This document shows, piece after piece, positions 3,003-13,444 of a DNA stretch of 64,000 bases; the first letter of the stretch is position 1, and every line of letters begins with the position of its first letter. The position numbers and the translations under genes were made by a program. Origin of the DNA: Armatimonadota bacterium (GTDB lineage: Bacteria; Armatimonadota; Fimbriimonadia; Fimbriimonadales; ATM1); the NCBI GenBank assembly GCA_003577165.1, contig QEUM01000004.1, positions 62,001-126,000 of the forward strand, read 5' to 3'. The notes under the pieces are model-generated. The model was not told the DNA's origin. It was given only the letters and a program-made list of their open reading frames with translations, and did not search any database.

Positions 3003-3578
3003 TTACCCTTGCCGGCCTTCGATTGCGGCCAGCAGAACGGCCGCAGCGAGCCCGAGACGGCGGTCGAGGAGCCCGTCTCCTGAGTTTGGAAACTCGATGT
3101 CCATTCGAAAGACGAAAGGATTGAACCTCTGACTGTAGTACGCGACGGGCACGCCGTTGATGTCCGCGTGGAACTTCTGCGGAACTAAGTTGGTCAAGAG
3201 CCTTCTTAAGAGCGCAAGGGCCGTGCTGTCTTCCACGATGCGGCCGATCTCCACGTCGAGATCGTTCATGAGGACCCAGTTGTCTCTCACGAGCGACGAC
3301 CAGCCTTTTCGTTTGAGTGCGCCGACCTTCTGGCCCGATGCTGTGTCGAAGACGTCATAGGCGGCGGAGAAGTCTACGATCTGCCGCGCACGAATGTAAA
3401 GGACCTCGCGCGATTTGGATTCATCGCTGTAGAGGCGTATGTCTTCGCGGAGCCGGAACGCCTTCTGATGCGAGAACGCGACGAGACGATTCGCCGCGTC
3501 GTAAATCCTGAAGTTGGAACCGAACAGCTGCCAGTACTGCTTCTTGAGCAGCAGTTGTCGGGACTCGAAGTTCATCAT
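3003..3578 (-). CDS. LURP-one / scramblase-like beta-barrel protein
   Basis: 191 aa. The sequence is strand-rich with the layout of the LURP-one-related / tubby-like fold: LLLKKQYWQLFGSNFRIYD, then ALKRKGWSSLVRDNWVLMND, DVEIGRIVEDS and a final hydrophobic helix (GLAAAVLLAAIEG). Family members resemble phospholipid scramblases but their bacterial role is unknown. It lies 13 bp downstream of the VWA gene and 9 bp upstream of nfo, so it belongs to the FHA/VWA operon. Either of the two consecutive ATG codons could be the start. Confidence 0.7.
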   Translation of the reverse strand: MMNFESRQLLLKKQYWQLFGSNFRIYDAANRLVAFSHQKAFRLREDIRLYSDESKSREVLYIRARQIVDFSAAYDVFDTASGQKVGALKRKGWSSLVRDNWVLMNDLDVEIGRIVEDSTALALLRRLLTNLVPQKFHADINGVPVAYYSQRFNPFVFRMDIEFPNSGDGLLDRRLGLAAAVLLAAIEGRQG

Positions 3579-3591
3579 CCGATCTGCGGCC

Positions 3592-4944
3592 TCAGTTCTG
3601 CGACTTCTTACCCTGGTCGAGCGATGTCATCGTGCCGATGAGCGTCTTCTCGACTTGGCCTGTGTTGCCCTGCTGAAGTTCGCGAATCGCTTGCGTGACC
3701 TCTTGCGCTTCTCGAGTGCGCCCATCTTGAATCAGCAGCATTTGCGTTTTCTGCAAGTCGGCGACGGCCATGGCGGCCGTGATCTGGCCCGACTTCAGGC
3801 CCATTACCGTCTTTTCGACGATTCGACTCGCGAGCGAAATCTCGACGAATCGCGCAACCCTCGGATCTTGGGGCACGCTGCACTTCGCCTGATCGGCCGT
3901 GAATTCGATAACGAAGTCGATGTCCACTCGTTCCGTCTTGCCCGTGACTGAATCGTCGTACGTTAGAGTTCCGTTCATCACCCTGTAATGGCCGAGCGGG
4001 TGATTTTGAAACTCTAAGTCCACCGCCACGTCCAACTCGGTGCCCTTCTCCACGTCCGCAAGCGCAATCGTCGTCTCGCGCGTACCGGGCTGGATGTCAT
4101 GTCCGTAGACCTGTCGAAGATTGACCCAGCGAGCCGTTTTGAGGGTCAGAGACAGGTTGCGAGCAGCCACCGTCATCAACTTTTCCAACTCCGCGCGGAA
4201 AACTTCCGGGATCAGTTCCGGCCGTTGAATGAAGTAGTAGTTGCCTCCGCCACGCTTCGCCATCCCCGCCAACAACTCCTCATTGAATTCGTATCCGAAT
4301 CCCAAGAAGGTGGTGGTGATGCCCCTCGACTTGATGTCGCCGACATGGTTCACCAGAGACGTGTAGTCCTTGATGCCCGTCGTAGGATCGCCGTCGGTGA
4401 AGACGACGAGCCTCTCGACGCGTCCGTCAATGTGGGAGTTGAGAATCTGCTGCGCGCCCAAAGCAAGTCCGTCGTAAAGATTCGTCGTGTTCCCCGGCAC
4501 GATTCGATTGATATAGTCTTTGACCAACTGCTTGTCGAGAATCCGCCCCGGCGGCATCAGCACGTCTACGGTTTCCTCAAAGGTGACGATGCTGAGAATG
4601 TCGTCCGGCGATAGCAGATCGATGACGTAGCCGCATGCGCGCTTGACGTAATCCAAGGGCTCGCCTTCCATCGAACCGCTTCGATCGATGACGAGGCACA
4701 AGTTGAGCGGCGTTCTCACTCCGCCGAATCCCTCGCCCGCACCAAGCATCGAGATGAGAAACTGCTCGCGCGCCGGCGCGTTGGCGAGCGCGGCGGGGCG
4801 ACCTGCGATCACGTCCACTTTCAGGCCGTGAATCCCACCCGGTGGTGGCGCACCGCCCATCTGCGTCCGATTGGGATCTCCCAACATCTGCGTCTTGTTC
4901 GGGTCCCCGGTGGGGATCATCTGAGTTCGATTTGGATCGTTCAT
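3592..4944 (-). CDS. VWA-domain protein with N-terminal TQM repeats (candidate FHA ligand)
   Basis: 450 aa, no signal peptide, so probably cytosolic. A von Willebrand factor A domain spans about residues 80-260, with a complete MIDAS metal site: DRSGS at 87-91, Thr153/154 and Asp184 (FTDGDP). A beta-rich region follows to ~375, then a helical tail. The first 30 residues carry three copies of DPN(R/K)TQM, with Thr at 7, 18 and 27, and a further KTQM occurs near residue 402. Thr-Gln in a flexible acidic/basic tail is typical of phosphothreonine sites read by FHA domains, and two FHA proteins lie directly upstream. The start overlaps the FHA gene stop by 4 bp. Function is unknown; phospho-dependent assembly is inference. 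Confidence 0.85.
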   Translation of the reverse strand: MNDPNRTQMIPTGDPNKTQMLGDPNRTQMGGAPPPGGIHGLKVDVIAGRPAALANAPAREQFLISMLGAGEGFGGVRTPLNLCLVIDRSGSMEGEPLDYVKRACGYVIDLLSPDDILSIVTFEETVDVLMPPGRILDKQLVKDYINRIVPGNTTNLYDGLALGAQQILNSHIDGRVERLVVFTDGDPTTGIKDYTSLVNHVGDIKSRGITTTFLGFGYEFNEELLAGMAKRGGGNYYFIQRPELIPEVFRAELEKLMTVAARNLSLTLKTARWVNLRQVYGHDIQPGTRETTIALADVEKGTELDVAVDLEFQNHPLGHYRVMNGTLTYDDSVTGKTERVDIDFVIEFTADQAKCSVPQDPRVARFVEISLASRIVEKTVMGLKSGQITAAMAVADLQKTQMLLIQDGRTREAQEVTQAIRELQQGNTGQVEKTLIGTMTSLDQGKKSQN

Positions 4945-6302
4945 GGTTCTATCCGAAATGTCGTGGATCCGATTCTGACTGTGTCTCCCGGCTTCGCCGT
5001 CGCCTCCTGAATTCGAACGCCGTTCAGCAGAGTTCCGTTCGTGCTTCCCAGATCGCGTACCAGCACACCGCCCTGCGTCAATTGGAGAGACGCGTGCCGG
5101 CGACTCGCGCTCGGGTCGAACGACAAGGTTACACCGGGAGCCTCGCGGCCCAACACTAACTCGGTGAGGCCGATCTCAAATCTCTGGCCCGTAATGGGCC
5201 CGTCCAGCGCGACGAGCGAGAGGCCCGAAGATGTCGGCGCTTGGACGACTGCCGTCGCTGGCTGGGACTGCGGGGGCTGCGATATCGGCTGCATGCCAGG
5301 GATTGGGCCCATCGCCACCGGCGATGCGGACGGGCGCAGGGCGTCTACAGGTCGCGGTGCGATGCTTGGCGCGCCGCGCATCATGAAGCGGAGGCTGTAG
5401 GAGCCGACGTTGATGACGTCGCCGTGATTGAGGAAAGCCTCCGGAACTCGAATTCCGTTCACGCCGATGCCGACCGGCGACCCTCCGTCCACGAGCCGAT
5501 ATCGGCCGCCCCCCCGGACGATGCAAGCGTGCATCGGAGCGATGCTGGGATCGCCGAACAGCGGAATGTGCGCGTTCTCGCTTCGGCCGATGAAGGTGCT
5601 ATGGGCGTCGACGATCCATTCTTTCCCCTCGTTTCTTCCGAGTTCGAGTCGAACCCACGCCTTGCGCGCCATCCGCTCGACGATGCCGACAAAGAGCCCG
5701 ATGAACGCCCCCATGGTGACGCTCGCAGTCGCGCGCGATACTTCGCCGACCTCGCCCATCGTCTCAGATCGCGCGGCGAGGATAAGTTGACCGAAGACCT
5801 CGCCGAGGATGTCGAACGCGGCGCCTCCCATCGCCCCCCCGATAAGCCCGCCGATCATCCCTTGAATTCCTCTTTGCAGCGAGCGGGTGGCGATCCCCTG
5901 CACCATGCCGATCAGCGCGCCGAATGGCAAGAACACGAGCGTCCTCGCCATCATGCGAACCGGAAGCGCGCTTGGATCAGGGGACGGCACGAACACGGCT
6001 GGGCCGAAAAAGAGCGTAGCGAGAACGCCGCCGATCTTGAGACCGATCACCGCGCCGATCGCCCCGAGCAGCAGCCCGCCGATCAATCCCCTTAGCAGGT
6101 GAGCCCGGCTCCCTTGCACCTTCCCGCTGGCTCCGCCGACGGCGAGGCCGATGAATCCGCCCACGGAGAGGCTGAATAACAGTTCCCAACGCGCCCACCC
6201 GGCTTCGTTGAACAGATCGTCCGGCGAAAACGGCTCTGTGATTCCCCAGCCGAGTAAGCCGCCCAAGCCGCCGCAGAGGAAGAGGAAAAAGATCTGGCTC
6301 AT
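4941..6302 (-). CDS. Membrane protein with two C-terminal FHA domains
   Basis: 453 aa. Residues 1 to ~215 hold several glycine-zipper-like hydrophobic segments (LCGGLGGLLGWG, GLIGGLLLGAIGAVIGLKIG, GMIGGLIGGAMGGAAF), giving a multi-pass membrane anchor. FHA domain 1 (about 230-310) has GRS and an SxxxMH site but lacks the usual STNG motif. After a Pro/Gln linker, FHA domain 2 (about 370-453) is canonical, with GRE, SRRHA, STNGTLLNG. FHA domains bind phosphothreonine peptides. It is 3 bp downstream of a second FHA gene and overlaps the VWA gene, so the three probably act together at the membrane. Confidence 0.88.
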   Translation of the reverse strand: MSQIFFLFLCGGLGGLLGWGITEPFSPDDLFNEAGWARWELLFSLSVGGFIGLAVGGASGKVQGSRAHLLRGLIGGLLLGAIGAVIGLKIGGVLATLFFGPAVFVPSPDPSALPVRMMARTLVFLPFGALIGMVQGIATRSLQRGIQGMIGGLIGGAMGGAAFDILGEVFGQLILAARSETMGEVGEVSRATASVTMGAFIGLFVGIVERMARKAWVRLELGRNEGKEWIVDAHSTFIGRSENAHIPLFGDPSIAPMHACIVRGGGRYRLVDGGSPVGIGVNGIRVPEAFLNHGDVINVGSYSLRFMMRGAPSIAPRPVDALRPSASPVAMGPIPGMQPISQPPQSQPATAVVQAPTSSGLSLVALDGPITGQRFEIGLTELVLGREAPGVTLSFDPSASRRHASLQLTQGGVLVRDLGSTNGTLLNGVRIQEATAKPGDTVRIGSTTFRIEP

Positions 6303-6305
6303 GGC

Positions 6306-7559
6306 TTACGCTTCGAAGCGAAGTTCAGCCGAACCCAAGTGGATTCGGTCGCCGGGCTGCAAAGTCGTCTCCCCCTCAATGCGGCTGCCGTTGACGTACG
6401 TCCCATTGCTGCTTCCGACATCCCTTATGATGACCGCATCTCCCTCCCGCCTCACTTCTGCGTGTTTGCGGCTGACCGTCGGGTCTGAGATGAGGATGAC
6501 CCCCTCTCCCGCTTCGCGGCCGAGGAGCACGGCTCCGTCGGGGATTTCAACGGTTGCTCCCTGGACGAGCAGGCGTGGAGCGCTTGGCTTCGGCGTGGGC
6601 GCCGCCGCTCCCGTGGCTCCCACGGGCGCGAACGCCTCATGGGGTAGGGGTTCCGGGCGCTGAGCTCTCGGATCGAACGGCGGTGCCTGTCCTGGAGGCG
6701 CGTCTGCGCCGTCATCGTCACTTTGTGTACCGTCCGGAACACTAACACCGACGCTCCGCAACTTCTCGGCAACCTTGCTCTCGTTCGCCTTGAGCCAGCG
6801 GAACAAGGCGTAAAGCGCCCCGATGCCGATCCCGAGTGCGAGCAGCCAGACGATGGCGTTGGCGACAGGGGACCTCACGCCCTGGTCCGCTCCCTCCGCC
6901 TGACCTCTGCCTGTGCGGCCACCTTTGTCGGCCGCCTGACCCTCCTTCGCCTCGGGTTTGCCTTCGCCTGCCTTGCCGGCAGGGACTGCGACCGCGAGAA
7001 CAGGCGCGGCCTCGTCTCGGTCGAGGGCCAGCGTGTACTTCTGAGGAGTGGTGGCCTTCTTCGTCTTGCCCTCAAGATACTGTACTGAAACGGACACTTC
7101 TCCTGGAGGGACCCCGAAGAACAGGGCTTCTCCGCCCGAGATGAGGGCGGAGGCTGACCAACCCTTAGCTTCGAGCACCGCCATTCCGCCGTCGAGGGGA
7201 TCCGAGCCCTGGGTGGCGTTCACTCGGACCTCGCCGATCCTCCAGATATTGGACTGAATAGTCCAGATACCGGTCTTGACGGAACTGATGTCAGACCAGG
7301 CGACGTTTCCTCGCCCGTCCTTCACCAGTAGAAACCCGCTTTCACCGTCTGGCACGGTGAGCTTGAACGGCTGGTTCTTGAACGCCAGACCATCGGCGGG
7401 CAGCTGGCTCGGCAGCTCTTTCAGGACCCATGCCTCGAACGGTCCGGTCGCGCCAGAGCGCACCTCGATCTCCGCCGCGAAGGCCGCGGAGGTCACTGCC
7501 AGGGCGCTAATTGTCGCCAGCGCCTTCTTGCTCAGGGAACCAGTCATCCTCGTCACCAT
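6306..7559 (-). CDS. Exported/membrane FHA-domain protein
   Basis: 417 aa from the ATG at 7559. This start is chosen because GGGAGGAA lies 8-9 nt upstream and it places a signal peptide at residues 1-28 (ending AVTSAAFA); the open frame runs further upstream into the nnr gene. A beta-rich domain (~30-190) and a Lys/Gly-rich linker are followed by a transmembrane helix (NAIVWLLALGIGIGALYALF) and a C-terminal FHA domain with GRE, SRKHA and SSNGTYVNG. The predicted topology has an outside N-domain and a cytosolic FHA, so it could relay an envelope signal inward. The start overlaps the nnr end by 53 bp. Confidence 0.82.
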   Translation of the reverse strand: MVTRMTGSLSKKALATISALAVTSAAFAAEIEVRSGATGPFEAWVLKELPSQLPADGLAFKNQPFKLTVPDGESGFLLVKDGRGNVAWSDISSVKTGIWTIQSNIWRIGEVRVNATQGSDPLDGGMAVLEAKGWSASALISGGEALFFGVPPGEVSVSVQYLEGKTKKATTPQKYTLALDRDEAAPVLAVAVPAGKAGEGKPEAKEGQAADKGGRTGRGQAEGADQGVRSPVANAIVWLLALGIGIGALYALFRWLKANESKVAEKLRSVGVSVPDGTQSDDDGADAPPGQAPPFDPRAQRPEPLPHEAFAPVGATGAAAPTPKPSAPRLLVQGATVEIPDGAVLLGREAGEGVILISDPTVSRKHAEVRREGDAVIIRDVGSSNGTYVNGSRIEGETTLQPGDRIHLGSAELRFEA

Positions 7560-9120
7560 CGTCCCACGTTCCTCCCAGTCGGTCGAGATACCGTGCGACC
7601 AGCCCGGAGGCCGCCGCCGGGATCCCGTTCGCGATCTCCCGCGCAATCGCTCCAAATTGTCCTCCAATTTCCGCGGCTTCCCAGTCCTCGCCGGCCGTGC
7701 CATGGAGAAAGACAGCCGTCGCGGCTGCTTCGATTGTGGGGCAGCATCTGCGGGCGATGAGCGCGCCGATTGCGCCTGCCAGCACGTCGCCCGTGCCCGC
7801 AGTTGCGAGCGCAGTCGAGCCCCTGGGCCCGATCAGCAGATCATGTTCGGGGGCGCAGATGAGGGTGTGCGGGCCCTTGAGCACTGCGACCGCGTCGAAC
7901 TTCTCCGCGAGTTGCTTCGCAGACTCCACCCGGTTTGCGCGGACGTCGCCCGGGGACCACCCCAGAAGCCGTGCCGCCTCCCCCTCATGGGGAGTTAGAA
8001 CGATCGTTCCCTTCGGCCGCGCCTTGAGGTCTGGCAGCCAATAGAGGGCGTCTGCGTCGAGGACCCAGTGGGTCGGTTCGCCCTCTTGGAACAGTTTCTC
8101 AAGGAAGCCTCGAACCCCCGCTTCGCGGCCCAGTCCAGGGCCGAGGATGGTGCAGTCAAAGTCCGAAGCGGCCCGCGCCACCGACTCGGCTGCGACTTCG
8201 GCAATCGAGCCTGCGGACTCTGGGAGGGGGAGGTGGATAGCCTCCGGGAGGGTGTTCCGGACGCCTTCGAGGACGAAGTCGATCGAGGCGATGGACACGA
8301 GGCCAGCCCCCGACCTGTAGGCGCCCAGAGCTGCGAGGGACGGGGCCCCTGGGTACGACCTCGAGCCGCCTACGACGAGGGCTGTTCCAACCGACTTCTT
8401 GTGTGCTGTTACGGGCATGGGCTGGAGCCGACGAAGCGCCCAGGGCTCGTCGAGCAGTTCGGCGCGGCCCGCTCCCTCCACCAACTCGAGCGGGAATCCG
8501 ATGTCCGCGACGAACCACTCCCCAGCCGCCGTGACACCCTCGCCCTGGAACAGGTACGGCTTCGGAAACCCGAGGACGACGGTCTCGTCTGCCTGGATGT
8601 AGGGGCCGACGGCCGCGCCTGTGTCGCAGTCGATCCCCGTGGGAACGTCCACCGAGATCGTGTGCCCCAGAAAGTCGTCCACCGCAGTCACGAGGTCGGC
8701 GATCGGGCCGCCGAGCGGCGCCCTCTGGCCGGTTCCGAGGAGCGCGTCGACCAGAACTGCGAAATCGTCGAGGCTGCCCTTCGCTTTGCGCGCGAACTTT
8801 GAGTCCGCGCCGAGGATCCGAACGCCGGATTCTGCCGCGCGACGATACTGGGCGAGCGCCTCGCCCTTCAGGTCGTCCGCTGGTGCGGAGAGCAGGACGG
8901 TGACATCGCAGTCCTCCTCGTGCAGAAAGCGCGCTGCGGCAAGTCCATCTCCGCCGTTGTTTCCTGGGCCGCAGAGAATCAGCACAGGTCCCTCGCCCAC
9001 GGTGGCCGAGCGGGCCACCTCGCGTCCGGCGGCTTCCATCAGAGCCTTCGTGGAGATGCCGAATTCGGCTGTCGTTCGCCGATCGATCTCGCGCATTTCT
9101 GCGGAAGTGACGACCCTCAC
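7507..9120 (-). CDS. nnr: Bifunctional NAD(P)H-hydrate epimerase / ADP-dependent dehydratase
   Basis: 537 aa, the normal size for the fused enzyme. The N-terminal half is the YjeF-N epimerase (GPGNNGGDGLAAARFL around residue 51, VDVPTGIDCDTG near 158). The C-terminal half is the ribokinase-like NnrD dehydratase (GGSRSYPGAPSLAALGAYRSG, LTPHEGEAARL, and the nucleotide loop AGTGDVLAGAIGALIA). It repairs hydrated NADH and NADPH. The last ~20 residues are acidic. It is coupled to the SprT-like gene by a 4-bp overlap and overlaps the following FHA gene. Confidence 0.95.
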   Translation of the reverse strand: MRVVTSAEMREIDRRTTAEFGISTKALMEAAGREVARSATVGEGPVLILCGPGNNGGDGLAAARFLHEEDCDVTVLLSAPADDLKGEALAQYRRAAESGVRILGADSKFARKAKGSLDDFAVLVDALLGTGQRAPLGGPIADLVTAVDDFLGHTISVDVPTGIDCDTGAAVGPYIQADETVVLGFPKPYLFQGEGVTAAGEWFVADIGFPLELVEGAGRAELLDEPWALRRLQPMPVTAHKKSVGTALVVGGSRSYPGAPSLAALGAYRSGAGLVSIASIDFVLEGVRNTLPEAIHLPLPESAGSIAEVAAESVARAASDFDCTILGPGLGREAGVRGFLEKLFQEGEPTHWVLDADALYWLPDLKARPKGTIVLTPHEGEAARLLGWSPGDVRANRVESAKQLAEKFDAVAVLKGPHTLICAPEHDLLIGPRGSTALATAGTGDVLAGAIGALIARRCCPTIEAAATAVFLHGTAGEDWEAAEIGGQFGAIAREIANGIPAAASGLVARYLDRLGGTWDDGDEDDWFPEQEGAGDN

Positions 9121-9662: not shown

Positions 9663-11162
9663 TTAGAAGCGGACTGTGACGGACGTCACGGCAGTTCCCG
9701 CTCGGGTGACCTGACCGAAGGTGAGTTGCGCCGTTTGTCCACGCTTGTATTTGCCCACGGCCTCTCGAAGGGACTCGGGACTCGTGATCTTCGTGTCGCC
9801 AAGTTGCGTGATGACCATTCCGGGCTTGACACCTGCGCGCTCTGCGGGCGATCCCGGTTCGACGGACTCGACGTACACTCCCGATTTGGTCGGCGAGAGG
9901 TTCACTTCATCCTCGGCGAGCGCCCGCACTTGGACTCCGAGTCGGGCAGGGCCGACGGCCTGTGGGGGCTCGTTTGTCGGCGGCTGGGTGGGGTCACCGA
10001 AGAACTCGCCGAACGGGTCGGGAATGTCACCGAAGGGGTTGACACCTCCGCCTCGCGGAGCCGTCGCCGCGCGCGCACGCGACCAGTGATCGTCGGGCAG
10101 GGGCGCGAGTTTCGCGCTTACTGTGACGGTCTTCCCGTCGCGAATCGCCTTGATCGAAATCGTAGATCCCGGACGGTGGACGAGCATCATATTGCGAAGG
10201 TCGGCTTCGCCGCGAATCGGTGTGCCCGCGATCTCGATGACGACGTCTCCGGATTTGAGCCCCGCTTTCGCCGCGGGCGAGTCCGGCGTGACCTCTGCGA
10301 CGTAAGCGCCGCTCTTCAAGCCCAACTCCTGTCGCTGGTAACCCGTGAGATTCTGCGGAGCCACGCCGAGGAAGGCGCGCTCGACCTTTCCGAATTTGAC
10401 TAACTGATCTGCGACCGTCTTGGCGGTGTTGCCTGCAATGGCGAATCCGACGCCGCTGTTCGTGCCGGTTGCGCTCGCAATGACGGTGTTAATTCCGATG
10501 ACTTCGCCTTTGTAGTTGACGAGCGGTCCGCCGGAGTTGCCCGGGTTGATCGCAGCGTCCGTTTGGATGGCGTCGAAGTAGGGTCGAATGCCGCTTGCAA
10601 GGGATCGATCGGGAACCTGCGTGTTGCGTCCAAGTCCGCTGACGTGTCCCCATGTGACAGTCTGCTCGAGTCCGAAGGGCGATCCGATTGCGATAGCGAG
10701 CTGACCGACGCGCACCGATTCACTGTCGGCGAATTTTGCGGCGGTGAGGTTCTTTTCGGCGACCTTCACGATAGCGAGGTCGCTTGCAGGGTCGGCGATG
10801 ACGGACCCCTTTACTTCGCGTCCGTCGCTGAAGCGAACCGTCACTTCGTTGGCCCCGGCCACGACATGTTGGTTCGTCAAGATGTATCCGTCTTCACGGA
10901 ATACGACGCCGGATCCGCCGGACATCCGATTGTTGATCTGGACGACGGAAGGTGCGATGCGCTCGACGAGTTTCGTTCCTGCAGCGTCGAGTTGCGCAAG
11001 CACGGCCACCTCGTCCGGCGCCAAGAGCGGCGAAGCGTTCGGGTCCGCGAAGGCGCGAGGCTGCGTGTTAAGGAAAACGGCAGTGCCGACCGCCCCGAGG
11101 GCGACGCCGGCGATCAGCGTCAATCCTACAGGAGACTTTAGTGCGTTTTTGAATGCTCTCAT
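9663..11162 (-). CDS. HtrA/Deg-type serine protease with two PDZ domains
   Basis: 499 aa from the ATG at 11162, which has GAGG upstream and overlaps the RseB-like stop as ATGA; the frame stays open further upstream. Residues ~10-33 are a signal anchor. The trypsin-like domain has the full triad: H99 (NQHVV), D128 (SDLAIV) and S210 (GNSGGP). PDZ1 is at about 265-355 and PDZ2 at 415-497, separated by a Pro-rich linker. It acts outside the cytoplasmic membrane on misfolded envelope proteins. As the last gene of the ECF sigma operon it matches MucD/DegP in proteobacterial sigma-E systems. Confidence 0.94.
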   Translation of the reverse strand: MRAFKNALKSPVGLTLIAGVALGAVGTAVFLNTQPRAFADPNASPLLAPDEVAVLAQLDAAGTKLVERIAPSVVQINNRMSGGSGVVFREDGYILTNQHVVAGANEVTVRFSDGREVKGSVIADPASDLAIVKVAEKNLTAAKFADSESVRVGQLAIAIGSPFGLEQTVTWGHVSGLGRNTQVPDRSLASGIRPYFDAIQTDAAINPGNSGGPLVNYKGEVIGINTVIASATGTNSGVGFAIAGNTAKTVADQLVKFGKVERAFLGVAPQNLTGYQRQELGLKSGAYVAEVTPDSPAAKAGLKSGDVVIEIAGTPIRGEADLRNMMLVHRPGSTISIKAIRDGKTVTVSAKLAPLPDDHWSRARAATAPRGGGVNPFGDIPDPFGEFFGDPTQPPTNEPPQAVGPARLGVQVRALAEDEVNLSPTKSGVYVESVEPGSPAERAGVKPGMVITQLGDTKITSPESLREAVGKYKRGQTAQLTFGQVTRAGTAVTSVTVRF

Positions 11163-12397
11163 ATTCCGACCTCGATGTTGTCGAAGCTCGTCTCGAGTCC
11201 CTTCCAGAACTTCTGCAGGGCCACCGTCGCTTTGGATACAGGAACGCGCACGGCGGCTGCAATGTCCTCGAGGCACTTGCCGCTTCGCATAAGGCTTAAA
11301 CACACGGCAAGCTGCCGCTCGTTCCCAGAAGCGAGCGAAATGAGTCCGACAGCATCATCGAAGGTCAGGCCCATGGACCTCAGGGAGGCGATTCGTTCGC
11401 TTGGAAACGACGTCATCTCCTCCAGTCGCTTGGTGAGGGAGGCCTCTGCCGAACTTCCGCTCAGCCGAATCGTGTCCGCCAGCACGGATCTCATGACCGA
11501 GGGCAAGTCGCCCTCGACTCGGATGTAGATGCCGTCCACGGTTGCGTCCACGCGGCTCGGACGAGACTTCCTCTTGAATTGATAAAACGTGACGTTGGCC
11601 GCTCCGTCGGTGTACCGGAGGGCGGCCGTGTAACTGCCGTCGCCTGCCAGCAGCGCCTCGGCGCGAGTGAAGGTGAACCCAGCGGGCATGCGGATGGGCT
11701 GCACGACCCGGAAACCGACTTTCTCGGAGAGTTTGGCGATCGAGGAGCATCGCTCCGGTCCCTTCATCCGAATCTCGCGCGGTTCGCCGGAGAGCCTCAG
11801 TTCGAAGGTCTCCTTTGGAAGGCTCTGGAGGAACGAAATCGAAATCGTGTCAGAGACAGTTCGTGAGGTGCCGGACGGATGCGTTTCCGAGACTCGAAGA
11901 ATCACGAGTTTCTCGGTGTCGACCCAGTATTTCCGTGCGAAGAGCTTCTCTCGCTCTTTGGGGACGATTCGAATCCGCACGGCCTCTCTTCCGGCGATGA
12001 ACTCCGTTCCCTCGATCGAGGCTTCGTAGTTTCTGCGAAGGAGTTCGTAGCGTAAGTCGAGTTCTCGGCCCGAGGGTCGAGGCATCGGAGATTCTTGAAT
12101 CAGTACTAAATTCTGGTCCGGCTTGAAGGCGTACCATTGCTTGCCGTCGTTGAGGAACGTTCGGCCCTTCATCGAAACCGGGGACAGCACCTGCATCAAG
12201 TATCGGCCGCAGTTGCTTTGATCTATCTTGACTCTGGACGCTTCCTCATTCCACGGATTGAGATCCACGATCGCCGTGTAGGTGCGTCTCGCATCCAACT
12301 CCATCGCCTTGTGGAGAAGCGCAAAGGCGTCCGCATCGGGGTATTGCCCGAACATCCCCGGCACAAAGGAGGCTGCGATGACGAACTTTGCAGGCAT
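11159..12397 (-). CDS. RseB/MucB-like periplasmic regulator (lipoprotein-localisation-fold protein)
   Basis: 412 aa. A short hydrophobic N-terminus (PAKFVIAASFVPGMFG) precedes a long strand-rich region (~20-330). Phrases such as GRTFLNDGKQWYAFKPDQN, KYWVDTEKLVILRVSE and FTFTRAEALL resemble the two-domain MucB/RseB layout, whose N-domain has the LolA/LolB fold. Unlike RseB, it has an extra helical C-terminus (~330-412) ending with a putative helix-turn-helix-like stretch (CLEDIAAAVRVPVSKATVAL). Position supports the role: 10 bp after the anti-sigma gene and overlapping htrA. RseB-type proteins shield the anti-sigma factor from proteolysis. Similarity is by pattern and context. Confidence 0.65.
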   Translation of the reverse strand: MPAKFVIAASFVPGMFGQYPDADAFALLHKAMELDARRTYTAIVDLNPWNEEASRVKIDQSNCGRYLMQVLSPVSMKGRTFLNDGKQWYAFKPDQNLVLIQESPMPRPSGRELDLRYELLRRNYEASIEGTEFIAGREAVRIRIVPKEREKLFARKYWVDTEKLVILRVSETHPSGTSRTVSDTISISFLQSLPKETFELRLSGEPREIRMKGPERCSSIAKLSEKVGFRVVQPIRMPAGFTFTRAEALLAGDGSYTAALRYTDGAANVTFYQFKRKSRPSRVDATVDGIYIRVEGDLPSVMRSVLADTIRLSGSSAEASLTKRLEEMTSFPSERIASLRSMGLTFDDAVGLISLASGNERQLAVCLSLMRSGKCLEDIAAAVRVPVSKATVALQKFWKGLETSFDNIEVGI

Positions 12398-12407
12398 TGA
12401 GCGCGCT

Positions 12408-12851
12408 CTACCTCGGTCTGTCGAAACTCACCGGAACGCCGGGCGAGAGCGGGTTCGACGCGCCGTCATAGAACCGATCCGGATGCAACTGCGCGCCTGC
12501 GGTGATTTCGCTTCGAGGCGCCTCGTCCCGCTTCAGGAAGGTGTTGTAAACGGCAAAGCCCGCTATGACTGCGGCCGCAGCGACGAAACCGAATTTCAAG
12601 TTGGAAACGGACGCTTGCTTCGTTGCGGTGGATGAACTCAGAACGGTTGAAACTAATCGCGCTTCCAAATCTCCGGGTGGGGGGGACGCGGGCAGGGCCG
12701 CGACCAACTTCTTTACAGACCTGTGGCGCGCGAGTTCTGATGCGCAATTCGAACATCTTGCGACGTGCGAACGGATTGCGGCGATCTCGTCGGCCGGCAA
12801 CTCTCCGTCGATGTACGGGTCAATTCGCGAGGAAACGTATCGGCAACTCAT
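12408..12851 (-). CDS. Zinc anti-sigma factor (ZAS/zf-HC2), membrane anchored
   Basis: 147 aa. The N-terminal domain shows the complete zinc set C3, H29, C33, C36 (SHVARCSNC), the anti-sigma signature that clamps ECF sigma factors. A Pro-rich linker follows, then one transmembrane helix at about 86-105 (KFGFVAAAAVIAGFAVYNTF) and a ~40-residue outer tail. This is the RseA-like topology: cytosolic sigma-binding domain and extracytoplasmic sensor tail. The start overlaps the sigma gene stop by 4 bp, so the pair is made in fixed ratio. Confidence 0.9.
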   Translation of the reverse strand: MSCRYVSSRIDPYIDGELPADEIAAIRSHVARCSNCASELARHRSVKKLVAALPASPPPGDLEARLVSTVLSSSTATKQASVSNLKFGFVAAAAVIAGFAVYNTFLKRDEAPRSEITAGAQLHPDRFYDGASNPLSPGVPVSFDRPR

Positions 12852-13444
12852 AGCACTTCACAAAGCTTTTCGTATTTTTCTGGACACTTTGCCAAAAGAT
12901 GCCTGCGCAGTTGCTTTCGCCCACGGTGGATTCGCGAGCGGACGGTTCCAATGGAAGTGCGCATGATTTGCGCGACCTCTTCATAGGACATCCCTTCTAA
13001 ATCAGCGAGGAGCACGGCGATTCGGAAGTCGGGCGTCATGTTTGCGAGCCCGTCTTGGATTTCGGCTTCCATCGCGCCTTCGAGGAGAAGTCTCTCGGGG
13101 GATGCGGACTCGTCGGGCAGATCCCATCCACCGCCGGTTTCCGGGTGCGGCTCGTCGAGGCTGCTCGTCTTCAGGCGGCCCGAGCGCCGAACGTGGTCGA
13201 TGTGAGCGTTGACCATGATTCGGTACAGCCAACTCGTGAACGGTAAGGTCTCGTCATATCGGTGGAAGAACCGATAAGCCCTCAAGAACGCTTCCTGGAC
13301 CAGGTCCTCGGCGTCCGTTCGCGACCCAGTGAGGCGGTATGCCAACTGAAACGCTTGAGCGTGCGTGGTGCGGATCAGGGTTTCAAAGAGCTTAGCCCGG
13401 TCCTGCCCTTGCCCGGCGCTTGATGCTGTGTCCGCAAACGACAT
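12848..13444 (-). CDS. ECF (sigma-70 family) RNA polymerase sigma factor
   Basis: 198 aa. Region 2 is clear (QLAYRLTGSRTDAEDLVQEAF, then PFTSWLYRIMVNAHIDHVRR), as is region 4 (FRIAVLLADLEGMSYEEVAQ, then IGTVRSRIHRGRKQLRRHL). There is no region 1.1 or 3, as usual for ECF (group IV) sigma factors. It directs transcription when released by the anti-sigma protein encoded immediately downstream. AGGAG lies ~9 nt before the ATG. A candidate ECF-type promoter (13471-13496) suggests autoregulation. It is first gene of the sigma / anti-sigma / RseB-like / htrA operon. Confidence 0.95.
   Translation of the reverse strand: MSFADTASSAGQGQDRAKLFETLIRTTHAQAFQLAYRLTGSRTDAEDLVQEAFLRAYRFFHRYDETLPFTSWLYRIMVNAHIDHVRRSGRLKTSSLDEPHPETGGGWDLPDESASPERLLLEGAMEAEIQDGLANMTPDFRIAVLLADLEGMSYEEVAQIMRTSIGTVRSRIHRGRKQLRRHLLAKCPEKYEKLCEVL

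Follow-up and report, generated by a model that had tools for sequence, protein, structure and literature searches.

A FHA/VWA gene triplet of Armatimonadota is half of a probable six-protein phosphothreonine module resembling archaeal ArnA/ArnB

Here, we identify three consecutive genes for two FHA proteins (FHA-A and FHA-B) and a VWA protein, carried on a 64,000-nucleotide stretch of an Armatimonadota genome (contig QEUM01000004.1, positions 62,001 to 126,000; hereafter the window), as half of a six-protein, phylum-wide module of probable phosphothreonine signaling. The other half consists of a zinc-ribbon protein with two FHA domains, a PP2C phosphatase and a membrane Ser/Thr kinase of the Hanks type. 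A preliminary description of the stretch had presented the triplet as an FHA/VWA module; its genes are real, but the window misses the third FHA protein, which has the same repeats, as well as the phosphatase and the kinase. We consider it likely that the module acts as a bacterial counterpart of the ArnAB switch: the kinase would mark threonine arrays on two of the proteins, FHA domains would bind the marked threonines, and the phosphatase would reset the system. To our knowledge, switches of the ArnA/ArnB type have been studied only in Sulfolobales, and we know of no natural ligands for most bacterial FHA domains.

All three genes of the triplet lie on the minus strand, and Pfam assigns them one FHA, two FHA and one VWA domain, respectively. 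FHA-A and FHA-B are separated by a gap of 3 bp, whereas the FHA-B/VWA junction, given as a 4-bp spacing, is a 4-bp overlap (ATGA). The main features, in window coordinates except for the last two, are as follows.

6306-7559, minus strand: FHA-A, 417 amino acids from the ATG at 7559, one FHA domain (Pfam)
4941-6302, minus strand: FHA-B, 453 amino acids, two FHA domains (Pfam)
5403-5594, minus strand: FHA1 of FHA-B, fold residues kept, phosphothreonine-binding Ser and Asn missing from almost all 46 orthologues
4967-5155, minus strand: FHA2 of FHA-B, canonical phosphothreonine-binding residues invariant in 46/46 orthologues
3592-4944, minus strand: VWA protein, 450 amino acids, one VWA domain (Pfam)
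4837-4944, minus strand: N-terminal tail of the VWA protein, residues 1-36, with DPNRTQM, DPNKTQM and DPNRTQM
4924-4926, 4891-4893 and 4864-4866, minus strand: codons of Thr7, Thr18 and Thr27 in this tail
4198-4704, minus strand: VWA domain, residues 81-249, with a DRSGS metal ion-dependent adhesion site (MIDAS) motif
3613-3864, minus strand: C-terminal helix bundle of the VWA protein, residues 361-444, with invariant Thr379, Thr400 and Thr434
Contig C18 of the window genome, G000 (L016 4622-6353): zinc-ribbon/FHA and PP2C genes
Contig C6 of the window genome (L018 4783-6567): Hanks kinase gene

The VWA protein begins MNDPNRTQMIPTGDPNKTQMLGDPNRTQM and, exactly as first described, carries DPN[RK]TQM three times within residues 1-29, around Thr7, Thr18 and Thr27; an additional KTQM is present as well, at Thr400. 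The repeat is not a product of chance. By pattern search, on which our genome-wide motif counts rest, DPN-x-TQM is encoded four times in the window genome (2.75 Mb, 97.5% complete), three times in this tail and once in the tail of the FHA protein on contig C18, and the reversed pattern has zero occurrences genome-wide; across the phylum, DPN-x-T-x-M is encoded in 98 of 291 genomes, and its reversed control is rare. Every one of the 59 VWA orthologue tails that we read, which represent about 30 families, contains the motif D-x0-2-[RK]-T; in 53 of them it occurs more than once. Together they hold 161 such motifs against 5.7 ± 2.2 after shuffling (maximum 14; 500 shuffles), a factor that overstates the independent evidence because shuffling leaves the kinship among orthologues in place. 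Tail length and spacing vary freely among genera, so the motif has persisted through changes in the remainder of the tail, with a favored context of D(-4) P(-3) N(-2) R/K(-1) T Q(+1) A/M(+2). Thr27 is invariant in a 36-sequence alignment (A1), and AlphaFold2 models the tail as disordered (predicted local distance difference test score, pLDDT, 43-62). Motif density per 100 amino acids is 0.73 in the VWA protein and 0.47 in the zinc-ribbon protein, versus 0.04-0.05 in reversed sequences; it is close to the reversed control in the kinase, PP2C and FHA-B, and modestly raised in FHA-A (0.16 versus 0.06). These densities speak against comparable threonine arrays in the kinase linker, the phosphatase or the membrane FHA proteins.

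In most Armatimonadota outside the window's order, Fimbriimonadales, the six genes form a single run of FHA-A, FHA-B, VWA, zinc-ribbon/FHA, PP2C and membrane Ser/Thr kinase, with the last three following the VWA gene at, for example, loci L114, L117, L123, L128 and L134. The VWA and zinc-ribbon genes are adjacent in the outgroup families and in f4/f5; in the window genome they lie on different contigs, the zinc-ribbon and PP2C genes on the one hand and the kinase gene on the other having been relocated to two other places. Of 36 genomes outside the order, 30 have the kinase gene no more than 8 kb from the VWA gene. In four of the remaining six the two genes fall on different small contigs, in one (G045) they are clearly unlinked, and in one they sit on separate contigs of a larger assembly. 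Among 145 genomes outside the order, 131 have the VWA protein, zinc-ribbon protein and kinase all together or not at all, with all three found in 80 and none in 51, at E-value thresholds of our own choosing (1e-60, 1e-16 and 1e-76, respectively); several of the 14 genomes with a mixture are fragmented metagenome-assembled genomes (MAGs). FHA-B is also missing from three or four genomes that lack the VWA protein (G132, G133, and G221 and/or G236).

The window genome encodes six FHA domains in four proteins. Scoring the phosphothreonine-binding signature as G-R, S-x-x-H and S-x-N-G, we find these residues invariant in FHA-A (45/45 orthologues) and FHA2 of FHA-B, and invariant or nearly so in both FHA domains of the zinc-ribbon protein (43 orthologues). 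The full signature is kept in all FHA domains except FHA1 of FHA-B, which is degenerate in 46 of 46 orthologues and probably a conserved, non-binding pseudo-FHA domain kept across the phylum. Hydropathy places the FHA domains of FHA-A and FHA-B after the membrane segments, which in FHA-B form a Gly-rich multi-pass domain ahead of the degenerate FHA1 and the canonical FHA2. FHA-A begins with a signal-peptide-like stretch, and a second hydrophobic segment (around residues 235-253) also precedes its FHA domain; the protein is therefore predicted to comprise an extracytoplasmic region, one transmembrane segment and a C-terminal cytoplasmic FHA domain. It had been called an exported or membrane FHA protein, and hydropathy bears out the membrane segment but not the export of the FHA domain.

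The third FHA protein, whose copy on contig C18 begins MTDPNRTQMLPTDPNRTVM, carries its ribbon (C-x2-C-x10-C-x2-C) at the N-terminal side of the two FHA domains, with a nearly invariant Thr (42/43) just ahead of it, and a phmmer search finds the FHA domain of ArnA (E 2e-7). In some Armatimonadota it also has an N-terminal DnaJ (J) domain (L134 7326-8585, with a Pfam E-value of 2.9e-12; L136; L277 617-1327), an unusual J-domain and FHA fusion. The PP2C phosphatase has a tail with the single motif E-[IT]-T-A-[EKR]-[FY]-x4-L, its Thr conserved in 36/36 sequences and its Leu in 33/36. This motif shares with the phosphorylatable peptide of GarA, SDEVTVETTSVFRADFL (PMC8546545), the Thr, a small residue, an aromatic residue at +3 and Leu at +8; the resemblance is short and could be convergence. 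A search of the window genome for Ser/Thr kinases returns three Hanks kinases, the one assigned to the module lying on contig C6, outside the window. In families outside the window's order the module kinase begins LGKYQIIREIARSNDIVYEA, and it is predicted to have one transmembrane segment before a TPR-like part, which would be extracytoplasmic.

The AlphaFold2 model of the VWA protein (pLDDT 87) consists of the disordered tail, a split beta-sandwich with an inserted VWA domain, and a C-terminal four-helix bundle. Its top full-length match in the PDB is ArnB (8s05_A; Foldseek E 8.5e-26, Z 34.8, root-mean-square deviation 3.6), aligned over 373 residues from model residue 39 onward, and a profile of the VWA protein finds ArnB by sequence too (E 1e-15). 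By this model the protein has the complete three-domain architecture of ArnB, and the fold of the ArnB_C domain matches although Pfam-A gives no ArnB_C hit at E-values up to 0.05. The next structural matches are vWA2/ArnE (5a8j) and, with a tied Z of 34.5, the VWA protein 4fx5 from Catenulispora, so the fold extends beyond the Arn system, as the ArnAB authors also remark (PMC12852372). ArnB residue 2 pairs with model residue 39, leaving ArnB without an N-terminal extension.

In the modeled structure, the C-terminal bundle is the counterpart of RHB/ArnB_C, the phosphorylated region of ArnB. Because it holds the three invariant threonines of the VWA protein, Thr379, Thr400 and Thr434 (contexts EKTVMG, LQKTQ and EKTLxGT), both the tail and the bundle are candidate phosphorylation sites. 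We regard it as unlikely, though worth weighing, that the bundle threonines are the functional sites, as in ArnB, and that the array is secondary or serves as a kinase-docking element that raises phosphorylation efficiency. The invariance of these residues within a homologous bundle and the missing extension in ArnB speak for such an arrangement. Invariant threonines in a folded bundle can, however, be structural. Selection on the array, in contrast, has acted on a whole motif (Asp, Pro, Asn and Arg/Lys at positions -4 to -1), which recurs in the zinc-ribbon protein, as the bundle threonines do not.

We propose that a signal would be sensed at the outer part of the membrane Hanks kinase, and that the C6 kinase would then phosphorylate tail threonines of the VWA and zinc-ribbon proteins, within their tandem DPN[RK]TxM repeats. 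The resulting phosphothreonine tags would be bound by FHA-A, by FHA2 of FHA-B and by both FHA domains of the zinc-ribbon protein, in trans where the membrane FHA proteins are concerned, and perhaps also in cis within the zinc-ribbon protein, as in GarA. Binding would join the VWA and zinc-ribbon proteins and bring their complex to the membrane, changing both the complex and its localization. The PP2C phosphatase, for which its own E-x-T-A tail probably serves as a tether, would strip the phosphates. The model joins computed observations, namely array conservation and specificity, intact FHA sites, the gene run, co-occurrence, the ArnB fold and the disordered tail, to steps that we infer: phosphorylation of the tail threonines, the part of the C6 kinase, FHA binding and membrane topology.

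Phosphorylation-dependent docking is the best reading because the repeats are conserved, the tail is disordered, the FHA signatures are kept, and a kinase and a phosphatase stand in the same run in relatives. The original suggestion that phosphorylated VWA protein docks on the membrane FHA proteins is partly supported by these observations, with the degenerate FHA1 of FHA-B as a probable exception among the binding domains. Several observations weigh against this reading. The window genome encodes two further candidate kinases, and within Fimbriimonadales the assigned kinase is not linked to the VWA gene. In the arrays, the distance from Thr to the next hydrophobic residue varies (TQM versus TQAM), which makes it hard to see one FHA specificity behind them. 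The distant VWA relatives in the phylum that stand beside a lone FHA gene (zinc-ribbon at L271, DnaJ-FHA at L277) have no array. Finally, the VWA tail could serve another purpose, since the phosphothreonines mapped in ArnB lie in its C-terminal bundle and not in an N-terminal tail.

The first description had asked whether the repeats are conserved only where FHA genes are adjacent. Fourteen VWA loci without FHA-A or FHA-B in their fetched flanks, some of which are short or at contig ends, retain the tail, and each of these genomes has an FHA-B relative at another place. Homologues without repeats despite FHA neighbors do exist as the distant relatives at L271 and L277, but all 59 orthologues examined have the array. 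Thus, the array tracks the full module rather than FHA adjacency. Pairs of the L271/L277 type look like a minimal ArnAB-like pair, to which the array and the membrane FHA proteins may have been added later, across a large section of the phylum. YfbK-type or MerR-linked VWA proteins share the VWA core and differ in lacking both the tail and an annotated FHA neighbor: a VWA paralogue on contig C12 of the window genome (32% identity) begins at the core, plasmid relatives in Deinococcus, Meiothermus and Cyanobacterium likewise have no tail, and no FHA gene is annotated in the flanks of any of these, where MerR or other genes are found. The MerR-type regulator gene adjoins the C12 paralogue directly (L017 561-2909), and this pairing recurs on the plasmids of the three genera.

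A more elaborate possibility, which we put forward tentatively, is that at least four FHA domains on three proteins read near-identical phosphothreonine tags on two other chains, forming a multivalent scaffold. Equally speculative is its functional corollary, that the kinase would shift the VWA/zinc-ribbon complex in a graded manner between soluble and membrane-clustered states, with the phosphatase recruited by its GarA-like tag. If true, FHA domains would here play the part that is known from multivalent SH2/phosphotyrosine or PTB scaffolds, in a system conserved throughout a bacterial phylum.

It is improbable that the tails instead bind a partner other than FHA domains without phosphorylation, such as the VWA MIDAS, a metal, the membrane or the kinase. 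MIDAS sites can accept acidic ligand residues, the motif begins with Asp, and the tail is rich in Asp, Pro, Asn and Met; yet the Asp is often displaced (DRTQ and EKTQ forms) where the Thr stays as the fixed position, and the arrays accompany intact FHA domains, a kinase and PP2C. Type VI secretion (T6SS) regulation likewise uses a kinase, a PP2C phosphatase and an FHA protein, and the module kinase matches PD-T4-6 kinase profiles, mainly through its kinase domain, but membership of the triplet in a T6SS threonine-phosphorylation pathway (PpkA/PppA/Fha) or a defense system is highly implausible, because the module is vertically conserved in a fixed neighborhood across the phylum, unlike defense islands. 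The T6SS link is largely refuted by the lack of a VipB/TssC match in the 97.5% complete genome, in a search whose E. coli control was positive, and PADLOC has no match for the VWA or FHA proteins, the kinase being matched in its kinase domain only.

The first description knew of no system with this layout, but Sulfolobus ArnA/ArnB, with its Hanks kinases ArnC/ArnD and the phosphatase PP2A in the archaellum regulatory network, is a close precedent. There, the FHA/VWA contact is phosphorylation-dependent (PMC6509490, PMC12852372): phosphothreonines in the ArnB helix bundle are bound by the ArnA FHA domain, and the ArnA zinc finger holds the unphosphorylated complex (PMC12852372, PMC6509490). Both systems combine a VWA protein of the same three-domain fold, a partner with a C-x2-C-x10-C-x2-C zinc ribbon and FHA, a Hanks kinase with a TPR-like part, and a phosphatase. 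ArnB differs in having its phosphorylation sites in the C-terminal bundle and no N-terminal threonine array, and is 15-18% identical to the Armatimonadota protein, whose partner differs from ArnA in its second FHA domain and in carrying an array as well. Moreover, the Armatimonadota system is bacterial, has no archaellum, uses PP2C instead of PP2A and includes two extra membrane FHA proteins.

The module also shares features with actinobacterial FHA regulators. Like GarA/OdhI, which are substrates of PknG/PknB, the zinc-ribbon protein joins a disordered threonine tail to FHA, but where GarA/OdhI have one ETTS site and a single FHA domain, it has a DPN[RK]TxM array, two FHA domains and a zinc ribbon. 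In Armatimonadota it is the phosphatase that bears the GarA-like tail (E-x-T-A-x-[FY]-x4-L, resembling ETTSVFRADFL), and we see no sign of oxoglutarate dehydrogenase control. The mycobacterial FhaA/FhaB-PstP-PknA/PknB operon, which is linked to RodA/PbpA, similarly holds FHA, PP2C and kinase genes in one run, but has no VWA protein and no threonine arrays. No module protein reaches an NCBIfam cut-off: PP2C falls just under that of Stp1, the FhaB model matches only below its own, and the OdhI model scores far below its own. The paired threonine arrays, the membrane FHA pair, the pseudo-FHA domain and the tagged phosphatase appear to be new; in the open-licence PubMed Central literature we found no description of paired arrays, a pseudo-FHA domain or a tagged phosphatase of this kind, nor of FHA signaling in Armatimonadota, nor any paper on TerY-P-like VWA/PP2C/kinase triads. 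Conservation alone picks out candidate ligands (the two threonine-array tails and the phosphatase tail), readers, writer and eraser of one module. The ArnA/ArnB-type FHA/VWA switch would have a bacterial version with its likely phosphorylation sites placed differently, and the role of ArnB-like VWA proteins becomes testable in cultivable bacteria such as Fimbriimonas.

Around the triplet, contig comparison yields relatives that are Fimbriimonadales/Armatimonadota MAGs (best identity 73%) among the best 80 of 444, all of them close, with other phyla covered through plasmid records only. In most relatives the neighbor of FHA-A is nnrD, which is probably a housekeeping passenger and which we do not count as a module member:

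7507-9120, minus strand: nnrD (NAD(P)HX epimerase/dehydratase), overlapping the FHA-A start

Directly downstream of the VWA gene lies an open reading frame of 191 amino acids (3003-3578, minus strand) that matches nothing in NCBIfam, PADLOC or, at E-values up to 1, Pfam and has no BLAST relative among the fetched loci of relatives; by eye, it is reminiscent of LURP-one/scramblase-like proteins. Also recognized by eye only are open reading frames for a sigma factor of the ECF type and a putative anti-sigma factor with a zinc finger (12408-13444, minus strand), followed at 9663-12397 by a 412-amino-acid envelope-stress-like protein and an HtrA-like protease.

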